From NCBI RefSeq assembly GCF_004366075.1, contig NZ_SODU01000001.1:2873134-2937133 (forward strand): DNA of 64,000 nt, written 5' to 3'. The position numbers and the translations under genes are program-made. Source of the stretch: Kribbella pratensis. GTDB taxonomy: Bacteria > Actinomycetota > Actinomycetes > Propionibacteriales > Kribbellaceae. The notes under the pieces were generated by a model. It ran no database searches and was not told the DNA's origin. It worked only from the letters and a program-made list of their open reading frames with translations. Positions 20,006 through 28,055 of the stretch are shown piece by piece (position 1 is the stretch's first letter; the number at the start of each line of letters is the position of its first letter).

Positions 20006-21466
20006 GTGATGTACGTTGGAATCGTTTCCAGCCTGTCCCTGCTGATCGCTCCCCTCGGCGCGCCACCACCGCCGCCGGCCGAGACCCCACAGGTGAACAT
20101 GTCCACCCAGGCAACGATCTGCAACAAGTACTGCGACGCCCGCGACCCTGCCCTCGCGCCCAACGACCGGGCTCCCGTCTCCACCACGATCTTCGGCCGC
20201 ACGATCACCCTGCACTTCGACGACGACGACGCGATGGGGTGGGCCTCGATCGAGAACGGCAACCCCGGCGACGAGGTCTGGCTGGACCGTTCGATGGACG
20301 GCGGCCGCACCTGGTCCGGCGGCAGCCGCCTCGGCAACACCGCGATCCCGAGCGGTCAACGCGGCTGGCGCACGCAGATGTACAACGTCGACGACTGGAA
20401 CAACCTCGGCGTCGGAGCGCTCCGGGCGTGCGGTAAGGCCGGCGACCGCGCCGACATCGCCTGCACGCCGTGGGCCCGAACGACGTGGAACGCCTGGGAC
20501 CGTCGTACGGCGGCCGCGACCGCGCTGATGCAGAACTACAACCTGGCCAGTGGGCTGTTCGACACCACGGGCTGGTGGAACTCGGCCAACGCGCTGAACG
20601 CGTTGATCGACAACGCCCGGGTCAGCGGGATGCAGAGCTACAAGTACGCGATCGGCAAGACGTACGACCTGAACCTGAACAAGTTCGAGGGCCAGTTCCG
20701 CAACGACTACATCGACGACACCGGGTGGTGGGGGCTCGCGTGGGTTGCGGCGTACGACCTCACCGGCGAGGACCGCTACCTGCAGACGGCGCGTGCGGAC
20801 GCCGATCACATGGCGGCGTACTGGGACAACACCTGCGGCGGCGGTGTCTGGTGGAGCGAGGCGAAGACGTACAAGAACGCGATCTCGAACTCGCTCTACA
20901 TCCAGCTGAACGCGCAGTTGCACAGCCGGATCGGCGGCGACACGACGTACCTGCAACGCGCGCAGGCCGGCTGGACGTGGTTCCAGCAGACCGGGATGAT
21001 CAACGGCTCGAACCTGGTGAACGACGGGATCGACCTGTCCACGTGCAGGAACAACGGCGACACCGCGTGGACGTACAACCAGGGCGTGCTGATCGGCGCG
21101 CTCACCGAGTTGTCCAAGGCAACGAACAACTCGGCGTACCTGACGTCCGCCCGCCGGCTCGCCGACGCGTCGACCACCGCGTCGTCGCTGCACACCGCCG
21201 ACGGCATCCTGCGCGAGCCGTGCGAGAACGGCGACTGCGGCGGCGACGGCCCGTCGTTCAAGGGCGCGCACGTCCGCGGCCTCGGCAAGCTGAACGCGGC
21301 GCTGTCCGACCACCCGTACACGTCCTACCTGCAACGCCAGGCCGACCGCGCCTTCGCCGCCGACCGGACGCCGATGGATCAGTACGGTCTGCGCTGGTAC
21401 GGCCCGGTCGACACACTCGACGCCGCCCGCCAGCAATCCGCCCTCGATCTACTGAACGCCGTCTGA
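20006..21466 (+). CDS. Secreted GH76-family alpha-1,6-mannanase
   Basis: About 485 residues. A short hydrophobic leader ([18 protein letters not shown]) is followed by a Pro-rich linker and a Cys-containing N-terminal beta region. From about residue 155 it has the (alpha/alpha)6 toroid of GH76, with the catalytic pair in [12 protein letters not shown] (about Asp235-Asp236), [20 protein letters not shown] and [14 protein letters not shown]76 enzymes cut alpha-1,6-mannan of fungal walls or actinobacterial lipomannan-like glycans. Adjacent GTG (20006) and ATG (20009) starts both follow AGGGAGA. The leader lacks N-terminal basic residues, so it may be an atypical signal. Confidence 0.92.
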
Positions 21467-21607: not shown

Positions 21608-23668
21608 GTGGCGGATCCGATCGTCGACGAGTTGCGCAGTCTTGCCGGGCCGGACCTGTACCGGCGGAACGCCTTCCGGATCAGCGGGCTGCTCGCGGAC
21701 GCCAACGCGCGCACCACCCGTCAGGTCGCGCAGCGGTTGCGTGCGGCGCTCGAGGGCGGAGCCGACATCGATCTCGGTACGGCGACCTCTCGCGACCCGC
21801 ACGAGATCCAGGCCGCCTGCGACCTGATCCTCGGCGACCCGCGCCGCCGGCTGGTCCACGAGGTGTTCGCTCCCTGGGGCGACGACGTCTCCGGCTGCGG
21901 CTGCCACCCCAAGGTGCACGAGGACCACGATGCCGCGGTCGCAGCCCACAACGACTCGATCGATCGCGAGCAGAGCCGCGGTACGCCGGACGCCGAGTGG
22001 AGCCGCGCCTCGCAGTCCTGGTCGAGGGTTGTCGGCGCGCTGACGAACCACCTGGAGTATCGGGTCCGCGAGCTCGACGACCGGCAGCTCGACGACTCGG
22101 CCGTTGCCGGGATCGAGCGGGAACTGCCGCGGACCCTCGTGCAGCCGGCCGTCGATCTCGCAGTGGCCGGTCCGCTCGGCCGGGCGGGCATGCTCGTCAA
22201 GACGGCGCGGAGGTTCCCGAAGGCGGAGACCGTGCACCATAGGCTGATCGAGGCCGCGGCAACCCCGTTGTACGAGGACCTGGAGGAACGCCGTACGCAG
22301 GTCGCCCGGCGGATCGGCGAGGAGCCGGTCGATCCGATCGTCGCCGAGATCGAACGCGACCTGCTGCCGCAACTGCAACGGCTGGACGCCCTGCTGCCGC
22401 CGAAGCAGAACCACCGGACCTCCGCGCTCCACGACCAGCTCGCGATCCTGCTCAACAACTGCGCCGTCGACCTGATGAACCGCGGCAAGGCCGCCGACGG
22501 CCGCGCCGAACGCTGGCTGGACCGCGCGACGAAGCTCGTGATCGACCAGCGCGACCGCGACCTGATCGACGAGAACCGGGAGGCGCTGCTCGAGAACCAG
22601 CGCGCGATGCGGGAGTTCCGCGAGCAGGTCGACTACCTGTTCCGGATGCGCGGGAAGTACGCCGCGCAACGCCTGCTCCGGCAGGCGCGGACGCAGACCA
22701 GCTCGCCGTCGGTCCGTGCCGAGATCGACCAAATGCTCGCCGAGCTCGCGGCCGGCACGTTCAACTCGGTCCACTCCCCTCCGCCACAGGTGAAGCGGCC
22801 GCCGGTCTCCCCGAAGCGCCGGCGTCGTCGCCGGCTGGTGGCCTGGCTGCTCGTCCTCGCGCTGATCGGTCTCGGCGTATGGCACTGGTGGCCACGGAAG
22901 CTCAACATCTCCAGCGACAAGATCTCCGACAACGCACCCGCCGGGACCTGCCTGGACCAGACGGACAGTTCGCCGACCGATCTCCGCGGCGCAGACTGCG
23001 ACTCGCCGCACTGGGGCGAAATCATCGGGTACGTCGCGATCACCAAGGTGCCCGCGACGTATCCGGGTGACGACCAGGCGAACGCGCTCGGCCAGTTCCT
23101 GTGCGGCGAGAAGATGGTCCAGCAGCGTCTGAACGCCGACGTGTACGACGTGACCACGCTCCATGCACCCGCACAACGCTGGAACAACGGCAAGAACTCC
23201 AGCAAGTACGAGAACTACGCGGCCTGTGTGGTTCATCGGCACGACGGTCTCGACCTCGAGAGCGGTGTGACACCGATCGCCGAGCTGAAGGATCCGAAGC
23301 CGGTCGCGATGGACCTGCAGGCCGCGAAGGTCGCCGACAACGCGCCCGTCGGTAGCTGTGTCCAGGGCCGAGTCGACGGCGAAGCGCTCGCCGGCAAAGT
23401 CAAGATCGTCCGCTGCAGTGAGTGGCACTGGGGGCAGATCTTCGGCTACCCGACGCTCTACGAGGCCGGCCAGTCCTTCCCTGGCGACAGCGAGGTCAAT
23501 GCCGTGTCCCGGAACGCCTGCGCAGCCAGGATTCCCAGCCTGCCGGGTTTCGCGACCTGGGTAGGACCGCCGTCGTATCCGTCCTGGGAAGACCCGAACC
23601 AGGTCAAGTACGCCGTCTGCTTGGTGCACCGGGCAGACAACAAGCCGTTCAAGGGAGCACCTGAATGA
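21608..23668 (+). CDS. Single-pass membrane protein with two external septum-formation-like domains (Hsp70 operon gene 1)
   Basis: A 686-residue protein starting at GTG with GGGGGTGA 5 nt upstream. Residues 1-400 are cytoplasmic and mostly helical; the first part (DLYRRNAFRISGLLADANAR, then GDPRRRLVHEVFAPWG) resembles N-terminal regions of DnaJ/TPR-type chaperone partners, although no HPD motif of a J-domain is present. A basic stretch (PKRRRRRRL) precedes one membrane helix near residues 408-428. Outside are two tandem domains of about 115 residues sharing DNAPxGxC, a CxxxHWGxIxGY block, YPGD/FPGD and a late C-V-V/L-H-R, like the septum-formation (PF13845-type) fold with paired cysteines. 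It overlaps the next gene by 4 nt. Probably a membrane anchor or regulator for the Hsp70 downstream. Confidence 0.85.
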   Translation: MADPIVDELRSLAGPDLYRRNAFRISGLLADANARTTRQVAQRLRAALEGGADIDLGTATSRDPHEIQAACDLILGDPRRRLVHEVFAPWGDDVSGCGCHPKVHEDHDAAVAAHNDSIDREQSRGTPDAEWSRASQSWSRVVGALTNHLEYRVRELDDRQLDDSAVAGIERELPRTLVQPAVDLAVAGPLGRAGMLVKTARRFPKAETVHHRLIEAAATPLYEDLEERRTQVARRIGEEPVDPIVAEIERDLLPQLQRLDALLPPKQNHRTSALHDQLAILLNNCAVDLMNRGKAADGRAERWLDRATKLVIDQRDRDLIDENREALLENQRAMREFREQVDYLFRMRGKYAAQRLLRQARTQTSSPSVRAEIDQMLAELAAGTFNSVHSPPPQVKRPPVSPKRRRRRRLVAWLLVLALIGLGVWHWWPRKLNISSDKISDNAPAGTCLDQTDSSPTDLRGADCDSPHWGEIIGYVAITKVPATYPGDDQANALGQFLCGEKMVQQRLNADVYDVTTLHAPAQRWNNGKNSSKYENYAACVVHRHDGLDLESGVTPIAELKDPKPVAMDLQAAKVADNAPVGSCVQGRVDGEALAGKVKIVRCSEWHWGQIFGYPTLYEAGQSFPGDSEVNAVSRNACAARIPSLPGFATWVGPPSYPSWEDPNQVKYAVCLVHRADNKPFKGAPE

Positions 23669-24168
23669 CGTGGGCCTGGTTCCGCCAATGGCGGCAGCAC
23701 AAGGCGTTCCGGATCGCGGCACCGAGCTGGTCAGGTACGGCGTACGACGACCTGGACCGCTACCTCGCCGAGCTCGGGGAGACCGCTGCTCAACCGGGCG
23801 AGGACGCGGACGACCACGCGCTCGCCGAGGCCGCGACCAATCTGTGGCGGGCCCGCCGCAAACTTGCCCAGGGCAACGATGGGCAGGGGAAGCAGGCTGC
23901 ACGGTATCTGCGGACCTGCGCCAATGCGCTCGCGTCCGCCGGGTTGACCGTTCAGGACCATGACGGCGAGCCGTTCCATGCCGGGCGTTCGGTCGACGTG
24001 CTGCTCTACTCCGACGATTCCGAGGTGACGGTGGAGACCGTTGTCGAGACGGTTCGGCCGGCCGTGTACCACCACGATCGGCGGATCCAGACAGCTCAGG
24101 TGATCGTCGCCGTACCCACCGGCTCCAAGAACTCGACCAGCTCCGACAGCGAGGACAGCCATGCGTGA
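23665..24168 (+). CDS. GrpE-like protein (Hsp70 operon gene 2)
   Basis: A 167-residue protein. The last 70 residues follow the GrpE beta-domain pattern: VQDHDGEPFHAGRSVDVL, then ETVVETVRPAVYHHDRRIQTAQVIVAVP, comparable with the GrpE sequence around GEPFDP...GTVVEVLRPGY...LRPAMVVVA. The long paired helix of canonical GrpE is replaced by a shorter helical region (about residues 20-95). GrpE exchanges nucleotide on Hsp70, so the likely partner is the Hsp70 encoded immediately downstream (8-nt overlap). It overlaps gene 1 by 4 nt. The assignment rests on this motif similarity and context. Confidence 0.75.
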   Translation: MTWAWFRQWRQHKAFRIAAPSWSGTAYDDLDRYLAELGETAAQPGEDADDHALAEAATNLWRARRKLAQGNDGQGKQAARYLRTCANALASAGLTVQDHDGEPFHAGRSVDVLLYSDDSEVTVETVVETVRPAVYHHDRRIQTAQVIVAVPTGSKNSTSSDSEDSHA

Positions 24169-26635
24169 CACCATCGATATCGGGATCGATCTCGGCACCA
24201 CCAACAGCGCGATCGCCCTGGCCGAGGGCGACACGGTCACGGTGATCAAGAACAACGAGAGCCAGGACACCACACCGTCGGCGGTCTGGATGCCGCGCGC
24301 GGGTGAGGTCAGGGTCGGCGCGAAGGCCCGTACCCGGGTCGAATCGGATCCGGAGAACACCGCGTCCGAGTTCAAGCTGGAGATGGGTCTGGCGGATGTG
24401 GCTCGCCGGTTTGCGAGGGCCGGCGTCCAGCTCACGCCGCCGCAACTGTCGGCCGAAGTCCTGAAGTCGTTGCGCAATGACGCGACCCGGTTCCTGAACG
24501 ACGCTCCGACCGCGGCCGTCATCACGGTCCCGGCGGCGTTCGCGCTGAACCAGAACAAGGCGACCGTCGAGGCGGCCACGTTGGCCGGTTTCGTTCCCGG
24601 CTCGCCGTTGCTCCAGGAGCCGACCGCGGCCGCGTTCGCGTACGGGCTGCAGGACACCAGCGACCGGGCGTACTGGATGGTGTTCGACTTCGGCGGCGGG
24701 ACCTTCGACGCCGCGGTGGTGAACAAGCGCGACGGCGAGCTGCGCGTGCTGCACCACGCCGGCGACCCGTACCTGGGCGGCAAGCTGATCGACTGGGCGC
24801 TCGTCGAGCGAGTGCTCGCACCGGCCGCCGCGTCGGAGTTCGGGCTGTCCGACTTCCACCGCGACAACCCGCGCCACGCGCGGAACTTCGCCCGGTTGAA
24901 GGCGGCCGCCGAGGAAGCGAAGATCGCGCTCTCCGGCATCGAGTCGACGTCCGTCCTGGTCGAGTTGGACACGCCGGGCGGCGACAGCGAGACGTTCGAC
25001 TTCACCCTCAGCCGCGGCGCCCTCGACCGCGTCGCCGAGCCGTACTACGTGCGCGCGATCAACCTCTGCCGCGAGGCGATGCGCGAGAACGGCCTGTCGG
25101 CGGACGCGATCGACAAGCTGCTCCTGGTCGGCGGCGTCACGCTCTCCCCCGGCCTGCGCGAACGGCTCGCGGACCCGGCCGACGGGATCGGGATCTCGTT
25201 GGAGACCCGGTTGGACCCGTCGACCGTGGTCGCCCGCGGCGCGGCGTTGTTCGCGAGCACCATTCGGCATCCCGCGCGGCTGGCCGCGGCCCCCGCAGCG
25301 GGCGAGTTCGCCGTCGAACTCTCGTACGAACCGGCCGTCACCACCACCACGACGACCGTGGCAGGCCGGCTGCGCGCCGGGCGCGACCTGGATTGGACCG
25401 GGTATTCCGTGGTCCTCGCGAACCCCGAGGGCCGGCCGCCGTTCCGGACCGCGAACATCGCGCTGAACCGGGTCGGCGCGTTCGCGACCGAGGTCGACGT
25501 GGACGAGCGCCGTACGTCGCGATTCACCGTCGAGCTGATCGACCCGGCCGGCGCGCCGCAGAAGGTGGTCCCGAACACGTTGTCGATCACGCACCGGACC
25601 GAGACGTTCGGCGGCGCGCGGCTCGCGCACTCGCTCGGCATCCAGCTGGCCGACAAGACGTTCTCGCCGCTGCTCCGCAAGGGCGCCGGGGTTCCGACGA
25701 CGGCCCACGGGAAGTTCCGTACGTCGTACACGCTGCTCCGGCGCGACGACGAGGCGATGATCCGGATCCCTGTCGTGCAAGGGGAACGGGTGCGCGCGAA
25801 CCGGAACCGGCCGGTCGGGCTGCTGACGATCAAGCCGGTCGACCTGCGGATGGATCTGCCGGTCGGGACCGAGGTCGAGGTCACGTTCGAGGTGGACGCG
25901 TCGAACCTGGTGACGGTGGTCGCCGACGTACCGCTGATCGGGGCGCAGTTCGAAGCAGAGATCGACCTCGGGTCGGTGCGGACGCCGTCGGCCGACGTAC
26001 TGACCCGGCAACTCGCGGAAGCCGAGGATCGGTACGACAGGTTGCAGCGGTCGGCTGATCTGCGGGATGTGGACGAGCGGTTGCGGCGGCTGGAGGCCGA
26101 GGGCACGTTGCCGACCGTTCGGGAGCAGGTACGGGCGTCTGCGACCGACGCTGGTGCGGCGGCGACGGCCGAGGACCGGCTGCGGGACTTCCAGGCGGAA
26201 CTGGACGACATTGACGATCTGGCGGCGTTGCCGGGTCGTACACGGGGGTTGCTCGATCTCCTCGCGGAGGCGGGCGAGTTGGTTCAGCAGGCAGGAGCGG
26301 TACGGGACGAGCAGGAGCTGACCGCGTTGCGAGAGGCGGCGCAGCAGGCGATCGACGACCGCGATCTCAAGGCGATCGACGCGGCGACGGAGCGGACCGA
26401 GATCTTCATGGCGCGGCTCTATCGGAGGCAGCCGGGGTGGTACGAGGCCGTGTACTGGGAGGTTGTCCGGTCGCCCGGGATGTTGCCGCCGACCGCTGAG
26501 GCGGATCGGCTGGTGGCCGAGGGGCGGGACGCGATCAACCGGCGCGACGAGCGTTCGCTGGAACACGTCGTACAGCAGATGATCCGGCTCCTTCCGCGCG
26601 ATGAGCGGGAGATCATCATCGGACTCACGCAATGA
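24161..26635 (+). CDS. Hsp70/DnaK-family chaperone with extra domain between NBD and SBD (Hsp70 operon gene 3)
   Basis: An 824-residue Hsp70. The ATPase domain (1-365) is well preserved: GIDLGTTNSAIAL, VITVPAAFALNQNKAT, LLQEPTAAAFAYG, VFDFGGGTFDAAVV, and LLLVGGVTLSPGLRE. After RGAALFAS (about 358) canonical DnaK has a short linker; here about 100 residues of beta-rich sequence intervene (about 385-485, starting ELSYEPAVTTTTTT). The substrate-domain beta region then resumes at HSLGIQLADKTFSPLLRKG (about 489) through VVQGERVRANRN and EVEVTFEVDASNL. A helical lid-like C-terminus of about 220 residues follows. Longer than DnaK (about 620-640). It is clearly a specialised paralogue and not the housekeeping chaperone. 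Overlaps genes 2 (8 nt) and 4 (4 nt). Confidence 0.93.
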   Translation: MRDTIDIGIDLGTTNSAIALAEGDTVTVIKNNESQDTTPSAVWMPRAGEVRVGAKARTRVESDPENTASEFKLEMGLADVARRFARAGVQLTPPQLSAEVLKSLRNDATRFLNDAPTAAVITVPAAFALNQNKATVEAATLAGFVPGSPLLQEPTAAAFAYGLQDTSDRAYWMVFDFGGGTFDAAVVNKRDGELRVLHHAGDPYLGGKLIDWALVERVLAPAAASEFGLSDFHRDNPRHARNFARLKAAAEEAKIALSGIESTSVLVELDTPGGDSETFDFTLSRGALDRVAEPYYVRAINLCREAMRENGLSADAIDKLLLVGGVTLSPGLRERLADPADGIGISLETRLDPSTVVARGAALFASTIRHPARLAAAPAAGEFAVELSYEPAVTTTTTTVAGRLRAGRDLDWTGYSVVLANPEGRPPFRTANIALNRVGAFATEVDVDERRTSRFTVELIDPAGAPQKVVPNTLSITHRTETFGGARLAHSLGIQLADKTFSPLLRKGAGVPTTAHGKFRTSYTLLRRDDEAMIRIPVVQGERVRANRNRPVGLLTIKPVDLRMDLPVGTEVEVTFEVDASNLVTVVADVPLIGAQFEAEIDLGSVRTPSADVLTRQLAEAEDRYDRLQRSADLRDVDERLRRLEAEGTLPTVREQVRASATDAGAAATAEDRLRDFQAELDDIDDLAALPGRTRGLLDLLAEAGELVQQAGAVRDEQELTALREAAQQAIDDRDLKAIDAATERTEIFMARLYRRQPGWYEAVYWEVVRSPGMLPPTAEADRLVAEGRDAINRRDERSLEHVVQQMIRLLPRDEREIIIGLTQ

Positions 26636-27546
26636 CCGCCTTTCGCCAGCAGGTGGCCCTGGGCCGAGCCGCCGAGCTGGCCCGTCAGGGGGACCTGTCT
26701 GGTGCGGCCACCTTGCTCACCGACCTCGAAGACCCGTCGGTCGAGGTCCTCGACCTACTAGCCCGAATCCGAGCCCAGCAGAGGAGGTGGGACGAGGCCG
26801 ATGCGCTGTGGGCGGAGGTGGTGAAGACCGCTGGAGGCACAGGTACTGCGGCGGGGGCGGTGGCGGGGCGGCGGATGGTTGCGGCGATTCGTGGGCATCG
26901 GCGGGCGGCGCGGCCTGTGCTGCCGGTTGTTGTGGCAGTGGTGCTGGTGGGTGCGGTGGTTGGTGGGGGCGCGGTCGCGTTGGGTGGTCGTGCCGACGAG
27001 CCTGTGGCGCAGCCGGCTCAGGTACAGCCGACCGTCACACCAAGTGTTGACACCGGCGCGGAGGAGCGGGCGGCTGAGTTGGCCCGGCGGTTGGCGGCGT
27101 TGGAGGCGCAGCGTCGCGCCGAAGCCGCCGCAACCGCGGCCAAGTTGGTTGTGATCGCACGACGCGTTGCTGGCGCAGGTGTGCTGGTGCAGCGCGAGAA
27201 GAGTGCGGTGCGCGTCGTTTTCACGGAAGGGGTGTTCGAAGCCGGCACCGACCTCAGTACATCCGGCGAGCGCGCACTCGACGTACTCGGAAAGCGGCTC
27301 CCCGGGCTGAAGGCAAGGATCACCGTGACCGGCTACTCGGTCGTCGTACCAGGCGGAACCAACTCCGGCGGCTCACGCACCGCACTCCTACGAGCCCGCG
27401 TCGCGACCCAGCAGCTCAGCACCGCGTCGGGTCTCCCGTTGACCGCGTTCACGATGCAGTCCGGCGACCAGGCACACCCGCCGTACCGCACCGACGCCCG
27501 GAACCGCACCGTCACGGTCACGTTGACGCCGGGTGCCACGCCCTAG
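26632..27546 (+). CDS. TPR-TM-OmpA-like membrane protein (Hsp70 operon gene 4)
   Basis: A 304-residue protein. Residues 1-65 look like paired TPR-type helices (ALGRAAELARQGDLSGAATL, RRWDEADALWAEVV), facing the cytoplasm. A basic segment (RGHRRAARP) is followed by a membrane helix near 95-118. Outside come a predicted coiled coil (EERAAELARRLAALEAQRRAEA, about 140-170) and an OmpA/MotB-like domain (about 185-304: FTEGVFEAGTDLSTSGERAL, ITVTGYS, LLRARVATQQLS), a fold that often binds peptidoglycan. It overlaps the Hsp70 gene by 4 nt (ATGA). Its layout suggests it links the cytoplasmic chaperone to the cell wall; this is inference. Confidence 0.85.
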   Translation: MTAFRQQVALGRAAELARQGDLSGAATLLTDLEDPSVEVLDLLARIRAQQRRWDEADALWAEVVKTAGGTGTAAGAVAGRRMVAAIRGHRRAARPVLPVVVAVVLVGAVVGGGAVALGGRADEPVAQPAQVQPTVTPSVDTGAEERAAELARRLAALEAQRRAEAAATAAKLVVIARRVAGAGVLVQREKSAVRVVFTEGVFEAGTDLSTSGERALDVLGKRLPGLKARITVTGYSVVVPGGTNSGGSRTALLRARVATQQLSTASGLPLTAFTMQSGDQAHPPYRTDARNRTVTVTLTPGATP

Positions 27547-27563
27547 ATGCCATGATGACGGGC

Positions 27564-28055
27564 ATGGAGCTGAAGATGTCGGCGTCGTACGACGCCACCC
27601 CCGAGGAAGTGTTCGCGATCGTGACGGACACCGCCTTCCGCGAGCAGGCCTGCGAGAAGACCAAGGCGCTGTCGTACGACGTCACGGTCAGCGCGTCAGG
27701 TACCGACACCGTCGTCCGGGTCTCCCGGAAGATGGAGGCCACCGACATCCCCGACATGGCCCGGAAGTTCGTCGGTGACACGTTGACCGTCGTCCAGACC
27801 GAGACCTGGCACGCCGCCGCGGCCGACGGCTCGCGGACCGCGGACGTGTCCGGCGAGATCGCCAACACCCCGGTCACCCTGAAGGGCACCGCCCGGATCG
27901 CCCAGGACGGCGGTCAGACGGTCCAGGCCATCGACCTCGACGTCAAGGTCGCCGTACCGCTGATCGGCAAGAAGATGGAACCGTTCGTGGTGGACGCGAT
28001 CCGCTCCGGCCTCCAGAAGGAACACGACCTCGGCCACGACTGGGCCGGCAAGTAA
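27564..28055 (+). CDS. DUF2505-family protein
   Basis: About 163 residues from the ATG at 27564 (MELKMSASYDATPEEVFAIV); ATGs at 27552 and 27555 are also open. The pattern of an N-terminal strand, YDATPEEVFAIVTD, and a C-terminal KVAVPLIGKKMEPFVVDAI helix matches DUF2505, a START/SRPBCC-like hydrophobic-ligand fold common in actinobacteria. No catalytic residues are known for the family. It follows the Hsp70 operon by 17 nt and may be co-transcribed. A perfect 16-bp hairpin 6 nt after the stop would end that transcript. Confidence 0.8.
   Translation: MELKMSASYDATPEEVFAIVTDTAFREQACEKTKALSYDVTVSASGTDTVVRVSRKMEATDIPDMARKFVGDTLTVVQTETWHAAAADGSRTADVSGEIANTPVTLKGTARIAQDGGQTVQAIDLDVKVAVPLIGKKMEPFVVDAIRSGLQKEHDLGHDWAGK

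Follow-up and report, generated by a model that had tools for sequence, protein, structure and literature searches.

The mitochondrial import motor combines mtHsp70 with the membrane-bound J and J-like proteins Pam18 and Pam16 and with the GrpE homologue Mge1. In the canonical complex of an Hsp70 with its J-protein, the Asp of the HPD motif contacts R167 of DnaK, and the His of the same motif contacts L391 in the interdomain linker (PMC13012618, PMC7289447). The HPD-R167 contact is generally treated as the trigger of Hsp70. With respect to gene content, the closest published systems are the GAP1-N2 GTPase conflict systems (Kaur et al. 2020, PMC7159879). The parts of that account considered here describe actinobacterial neighbourhoods with HSP70, GrpE and a DnaJ-domain or TPR protein and, as a separate theme, neighbourhoods with protein kinases.

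Here we describe a locus of four genes that lies in a stretch of 64,000 nucleotides of the Kribbella pratensis genome (contig NZ_SODU01000001.1, positions 2,873,134 to 2,937,133), referred to below as the window. The evidence leaves us about evenly inclined to accept or to doubt that this locus encodes a dedicated Hsp70 machine that is tethered to the membrane and has an altered trigger.

Gene layout, conservation and distribution

The four genes are located on the forward strand, as are the parts of them for which coordinates are given below. They comprise gene 1 (21608-23668, 686 aa), gene 2 (23665-24168, 167 aa), gene 3 (24161-26635, 824 aa) and gene 4 (26632-27546, 304 aa). An earlier note on this DNA had described four overlapping open reading frames with junctions of 4-8 nt, which is in agreement with the overlaps of 4 nt (genes 1 and 2), 8 nt (genes 2 and 3) and 4 nt (genes 3 and 4) given by the ORF coordinates. 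Likewise, its observation that a J-domain with an HPD motif is lacking was confirmed, as the HPD tripeptide is absent from all four proteins of the window.

The gene content and gene order of 25 loci were examined with family profiles. In 24 of these loci, sampled from four actinomycete families, the genes for the J-like, GrpE-like and Hsp70 proteins follow each other in the same order on one strand, and the remaining locus is cut by a contig end. The recurrence of this arrangement in 24 genomes is far beyond chance, and the ordered co-occurrence in actinobacterial genomes that the earlier note had proposed as a check was thus found. The designation as a four-gene module holds for the conserved order, but not fully for the gene number, because gene 4 follows in 22 of the 25 loci only and because a strongly matching Ser/Thr kinase gene adjoins gene 1, or is located between genes 1 and 2, in 11 of the 25 (Pkinase E-value of 1.5e-43 for one such kinase in Pfam). 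An idea that the surroundings represent a dynamin/ini locus was dropped, since the neighbouring genes encode kinases.

Loci L054-L058, L088 and L090 carry, slightly beyond the module kinase and on the opposite strand, a gene for a second Ser/Thr kinase that is more divergent. In family f20, gene 4 is followed by a gene for a protein of 468-489 aa that has several hydrophobic stretches and whose C-terminal domain is conserved (L058, 11322-12728; L055, 5399-6868); this protein may belong to the module in that family. A diverged version of the module, with an Hsp70 that is 40% identical and without gene 4, is present in L061 (9833-11770).

Of 37 Kribbella genomes, 13 encode the full-length module Hsp70, as does one genome from another family of the same order. 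The module Hsp70 was also found in family f15 (2 of 5 genomes) and in family f20 (9 of 35 genomes), all of these figures being derived from samples of genomes and from searches of limited sensitivity. Phylum-wide searches, in which only 4-12 candidates were scored per genome, returned the module's own locus alone, which is not evidence of absence elsewhere. No relatives of the Hsp70 C-terminus were detected in the plasmid and phage collections searched.

Gain or loss as one block

In eight Kribbella genomes the module has a GH76 gene on one side and a DUF2505 gene on the other, whereas in six Kribbella genomes without the module these two genes are directly adjacent and only a few tens of bases apart. 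The comparison of the eight filled and six empty sites indicates that the four genes were gained or lost together. The module thus comes and goes as a unit, which is compatible both with insertion and with loss. The start codon of the DUF2505 gene behind gene 4 is probably the ATG at 27564 (ATGGAGCTG) and not the one at 27552, as the former matches the genomes without the module. The GH76 gene itself (20006-21466) is broken or shortened in several Kribbella genomes, with one in-frame TGA in G278, a split gene in G273, and partial matches in G257 and G265.

Block-wise gain or loss, a patchy distribution and the association with kinases in relatives would also fit a biological-conflict system (defence or self-recognition) of the kind that Kaur et al. 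2020 predicted; the Hsp70, the GrpE-like protein and the kinase would then constitute a thresholding switch for an effector; indeed, Hsp70-GrpE-DnaJ/TPR and kinase themes appear in the parts of that account that concern actinobacterial conflict systems (PMC7159879). However, no effector, GTPase or vWA protein is encoded by the four genes. Specifically, no GAP1-N2 GTPase was identified among them with Pfam or NCBIfam, the flanking genes having been sampled only. In addition, PADLOC gave no match for the four genes, and its matches on the nearby kinase were rejected as a sign of defence because they are generic. The Kribbella copy is, moreover, flanked by ordinary chromosomal genes, and the absence of relatives from the phage and plasmid collections equally argues against a conflict system. 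We therefore regard this explanation as unlikely.

Gene 1 encodes a membrane protein with a J-like domain

The gene 1 product has a helical arm, predicted to be cytosolic, and, according to its hydropathy profile, a single transmembrane segment (residues 410-428, 22835-22891) directly after the sequence RRRRRR. By the positive-inside rule, its N-terminus would be located inside the cell. The region predicted to be external (22913-23632) contains two Cys domains of the Septum_form type (PF13845; E-value of 8.4e-10 in Pfam over two stretches), where the end of the second copy was judged by eye. The single-pass architecture with two such domains that had been proposed for gene 1 therefore stands for the window protein, but it does not extend to the family, since the outer part is variable among relatives and Septum_form domains are confined to the clade of the window. 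We rejected 'septum formation' as a function, because the Pfam name implies no tested role and because of this restriction to a single clade. The gene 1 product of L061 ends in a zinc-ribbon-like segment with Cys pairs and in transmembrane segments, and has no Septum_form domains; similar Cys pairs occur in family f20.

A profile of the first ~95 residues of gene 1, built from 11 relatives, was compared by hhalign with a profile of the six J-domains encoded by the same genome plus that of Escherichia coli DnaJ. The match, which places a J-like domain at residues 22-86 (21671-21865), was co-linear over the whole domain, with a score of 26.7 and a probability of 51%. By comparison, none of 100 column shuffles scored above 16.3, the reversed profile scored 8.75, and the 66 windows of the module proteins outside the domain reached at most 15.7. 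A 24-row version of the profile scored 27.0. Helix II of the domain is still rich in Arg and helix III still ends in A..L.DP..RL, and the HPD motif is missing from every aligned row, for which reason we refer to gene 1 as encoding a J-like protein and not a J-domain protein. These similarities suggest a degenerate J-domain without HPD at the start of gene 1, a feature that is new here and that lends real support to the earlier view that gene 1 may take the place of the J-protein.

It could be argued that the N-terminus of gene 1 is an unrelated helical domain resembling J-domains by chance or convergence, in which case the locus would encode an Hsp70, a GrpE-like protein and two unrelated membrane proteins. 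The J-domain model PF00226 does not reach gene 1 in Pfam, the hhalign probability is only about 51%, and the AF2 model is uninformative on this part (pLDDT below 50, with a mean of 62.5 for the whole protein and only seven close sequences behind the model). The co-linearity of the match and its clear separation from the shuffled, reversed and real-protein controls nevertheless argue against this reading, which we regard as very unlikely. A search of PDB sequences with the J-like profile gave one weak DnaJ match (1bqz, E-value of 1.4); armadillo matches in the same database were dismissed as repeat-driven artefacts.

Gene 2 encodes a GrpE-like protein

On its own, gene 2 matches GrpE weakly and below the Pfam and NCBIfam cut-offs (PF01025, E-value of 0.0095; PRK14163, E-value of 1.9e-4). 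The profile of the gene 2 family, on the other hand, reached an hhalign score of 36 against GrpE, whereas 100 column shuffles gave no more than 18. Weak Pfam GrpE matches were obtained in three branches of the family. The initial description of gene 2 as GrpE-like is thus upheld at the level of profiles. The alignment covers the C-terminal beta-wing-like part only (residues 81-150, 23905-24114), the long N-terminal dimerisation helices being not recognisable, and a PDB sequence search with the profile gave no GrpE at E-values up to 10. The beta-wing is the part of GrpE that contacts the nucleotide-binding domain (NBD) of Hsp70, and it is this part that gene 2 appears to resemble. Hydropathy indicated no transmembrane segments in the products of genes 2 and 3.

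Gene 3 encodes an Hsp70 without the J-docking Arg and the interdomain linker

The expanded Hsp70 previously recognised in gene 3 was identified by Pfam (PF00012, E-value of 1.6e-78), and it scores far below the DnaK equivalog cut-offs. The equivalents of the catalytic DnaK residues K70, E171, T199 and D201 are conserved in all 13 subfamily members. Conversely, the position of R167 is occupied by Pro in 12 of the 13 members and by Val in one, and that of N170 by Gln in all 13, so that PLLQ (residues 149-152, 24605-24616) takes the place of R167-I-I-N170 when the family is aligned with E. coli DnaK and with both DnaKs of the same genome. The VLLL interdomain linker is replaced by an insert of about 100 residues (25298-25600), as judged from the family alignment and the C-terminal profile, and this insert gave no significant match in Pfam or the PDB. 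Both canonical DnaKs of the genome retain the Arg and the linker. The E. coli DnaK, DnaJ and GrpE sequences served as references beside the DnaK, GrpE and J-domain sequences of the genome itself, which are in accord with them at the residues considered here.

SBD-beta (25601-25981) is retained, since canonical DnaKs align to positions 113 to about 290 of the C-terminal profile. When this profile was applied to 198 genomes of the class, seven had matches of 500-680 bits, whereas the other matches listed did not exceed 54 bits and aligned only from position 113 on, with the exception of a 74-bit fragment in one of the seven. This gap separates the module Hsp70 subfamily sharply from DnaK. A long helical part forms the C-terminus (25982-26632) in the AF2 secondary structure, with pLDDT values of about 75-90 there; the model as a whole had a mean pLDDT of 49.5 and, with only seven close sequences behind it, failed on the NBD itself.

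With HPD missing from gene 1, and R167 and the linker missing from gene 3, the canonical J-Hsp70 contact has been lost on both partners. Since members from four families show this and the ATPase site is intact, the double loss may reflect co-evolution rather than independent decay. A different explanation would be that gene 3 encodes a specialised Hsp70 of ordinary mechanism, devoted to an envelope or secreted client, for which one of the genome's six canonical J-proteins would provide the J function in trans. The conservation of the ATPase site and SBD-beta, as well as the availability of these six J-proteins, is consistent with that explanation. However, precisely the Arg and the linker that are used by the canonical J contact have been lost throughout the subfamily, and a J-like gene always adjoins the gene for the module Hsp70. 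On this basis an ordinary mechanism seems rather improbable.

Gene 4 and the link to peptidoglycan

The gene 4 product of the window has one transmembrane segment (residues 99-117, 26926-26982) by hydropathy. Of the TPR-TM-coiled-coil-OmpA-like architecture proposed for it, the transmembrane segment was found in the window protein and the TPR and OmpA similarities in its relatives (TPR_2, E-value of 8e-8; OmpA PF00691, E-value of 6.5e-7 and above the cut-off in L058, and weak in L055 and L062), but the window protein itself has no significant match in Pfam. The relatives also match NCBIfam models of the TssL/OmpA type. In OmpA domains, the Asp of the GHSD/GHTD motif binds wall peptide. The corresponding motif in the window is GYSV, and the Asp is replaced by Val in all Kribbella-type members. 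Together with the absence of gene 4 from some relatives, this weakens the earlier proposal that the module is linked to peptidoglycan. Such a link appears doubtful for the window protein and plausible for family f20, where the ligand-binding-type Asp is kept.

Proposed function

The genome encodes two canonical DnaK-GrpE-DnaJ sets elsewhere (G000:C1 at about 710-713 kb and G000:C2 at about 85-88 kb) and, therefore, the module is an additional system. From its gene content and order, its gain or loss as a unit, the domain resemblances and the residue losses, we infer complex formation, a topology, a switch and a role for the membrane-tethered Hsp70 machine. Gene 1 would fill the position of the J-protein, with its degenerate J-like domain on a helical arm that is fixed to the membrane; it would recruit the module's own Hsp70, and its variable outer domain would serve in sensing or anchoring. 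The GrpE-like protein would exchange the nucleotide of this Hsp70, and gene 4 would provide a second membrane anchor, with a TPR-like part in the cytosol as a possible holding site for the Hsp70 or a client. Since the module has neither the HPD motif nor the R167 equivalent nor the VLLL linker, the standard HPD-R167 contact is probably not the trigger of hydrolysis. Instead, tethering or the inserted linker domain may control the cycle, as may the adjacent Ser/Thr kinase in many relatives, and the likely role would be to couple the state of the envelope to the remodelling of a client in the cytosol or the membrane.

More tentatively, and with less confidence than in the machine as such, we propose that the Hsp70 and the J-like protein have evolved together away from the HPD-R167-linker trigger. 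In that case a folded insert would stand in for the linker and tethering or phosphorylation for J-stimulated hydrolysis, and the module would be an envelope-linked switch that uses a new allosteric mechanism. Caution is advised above all because of other J-like proteins: the J-like domain of ZipN/ARC6 has been described as probably working without HSP70 (PMC6391411), and CJD1, a J-like protein of plants, could not substitute for DnaJ (PMC3196505). Elsewhere, J-like domains without HPD may thus function without an Hsp70, which speaks against the machine proposed here. A family that lacks HPD, its Arg partner and the linker, while keeping J-like and GrpE-like genes and an intact ATPase site, represents a natural experiment on what the trigger is for, and the module points to a membrane-linked chaperone system of actinomycetes.

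Comparison with known systems

No named system with this gene composition was found in the open-access literature. ARC6 shares the architecture of ZipN/Ftn2. The likeness of gene 1 to ZipN/Ftn2 is one of architecture only, and consists of a cytosolic N-terminal J-like domain, a helical arm, a single transmembrane segment and a C-terminal part outside (PMC6391411). Unlike the module, however, ZipN/Ftn2 and ARC6 tether FtsZ and have no Hsp70 and GrpE of their own encoded beside them. The GAP1-N2 systems are, in the parts of their description considered here, centred on a GTPase and FNIII proteins, neither of which is encoded by the four genes, and a J-like membrane protein without HPD or an Hsp70 with a replaced linker does not feature in those parts (PMC7159879). 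The mitochondrial import motor offers an analogy in the way of working only, as it has an HPD-containing partner and a canonical Hsp70. Lastly, the canonical dnaK-grpE-dnaJ operon likewise encodes an Hsp70, a GrpE-type and a J-type protein together. Compared to this operon, the module lacks HPD, R167 and the linker, keeps of GrpE the beta-wing-like part alone, and has two membrane partners.
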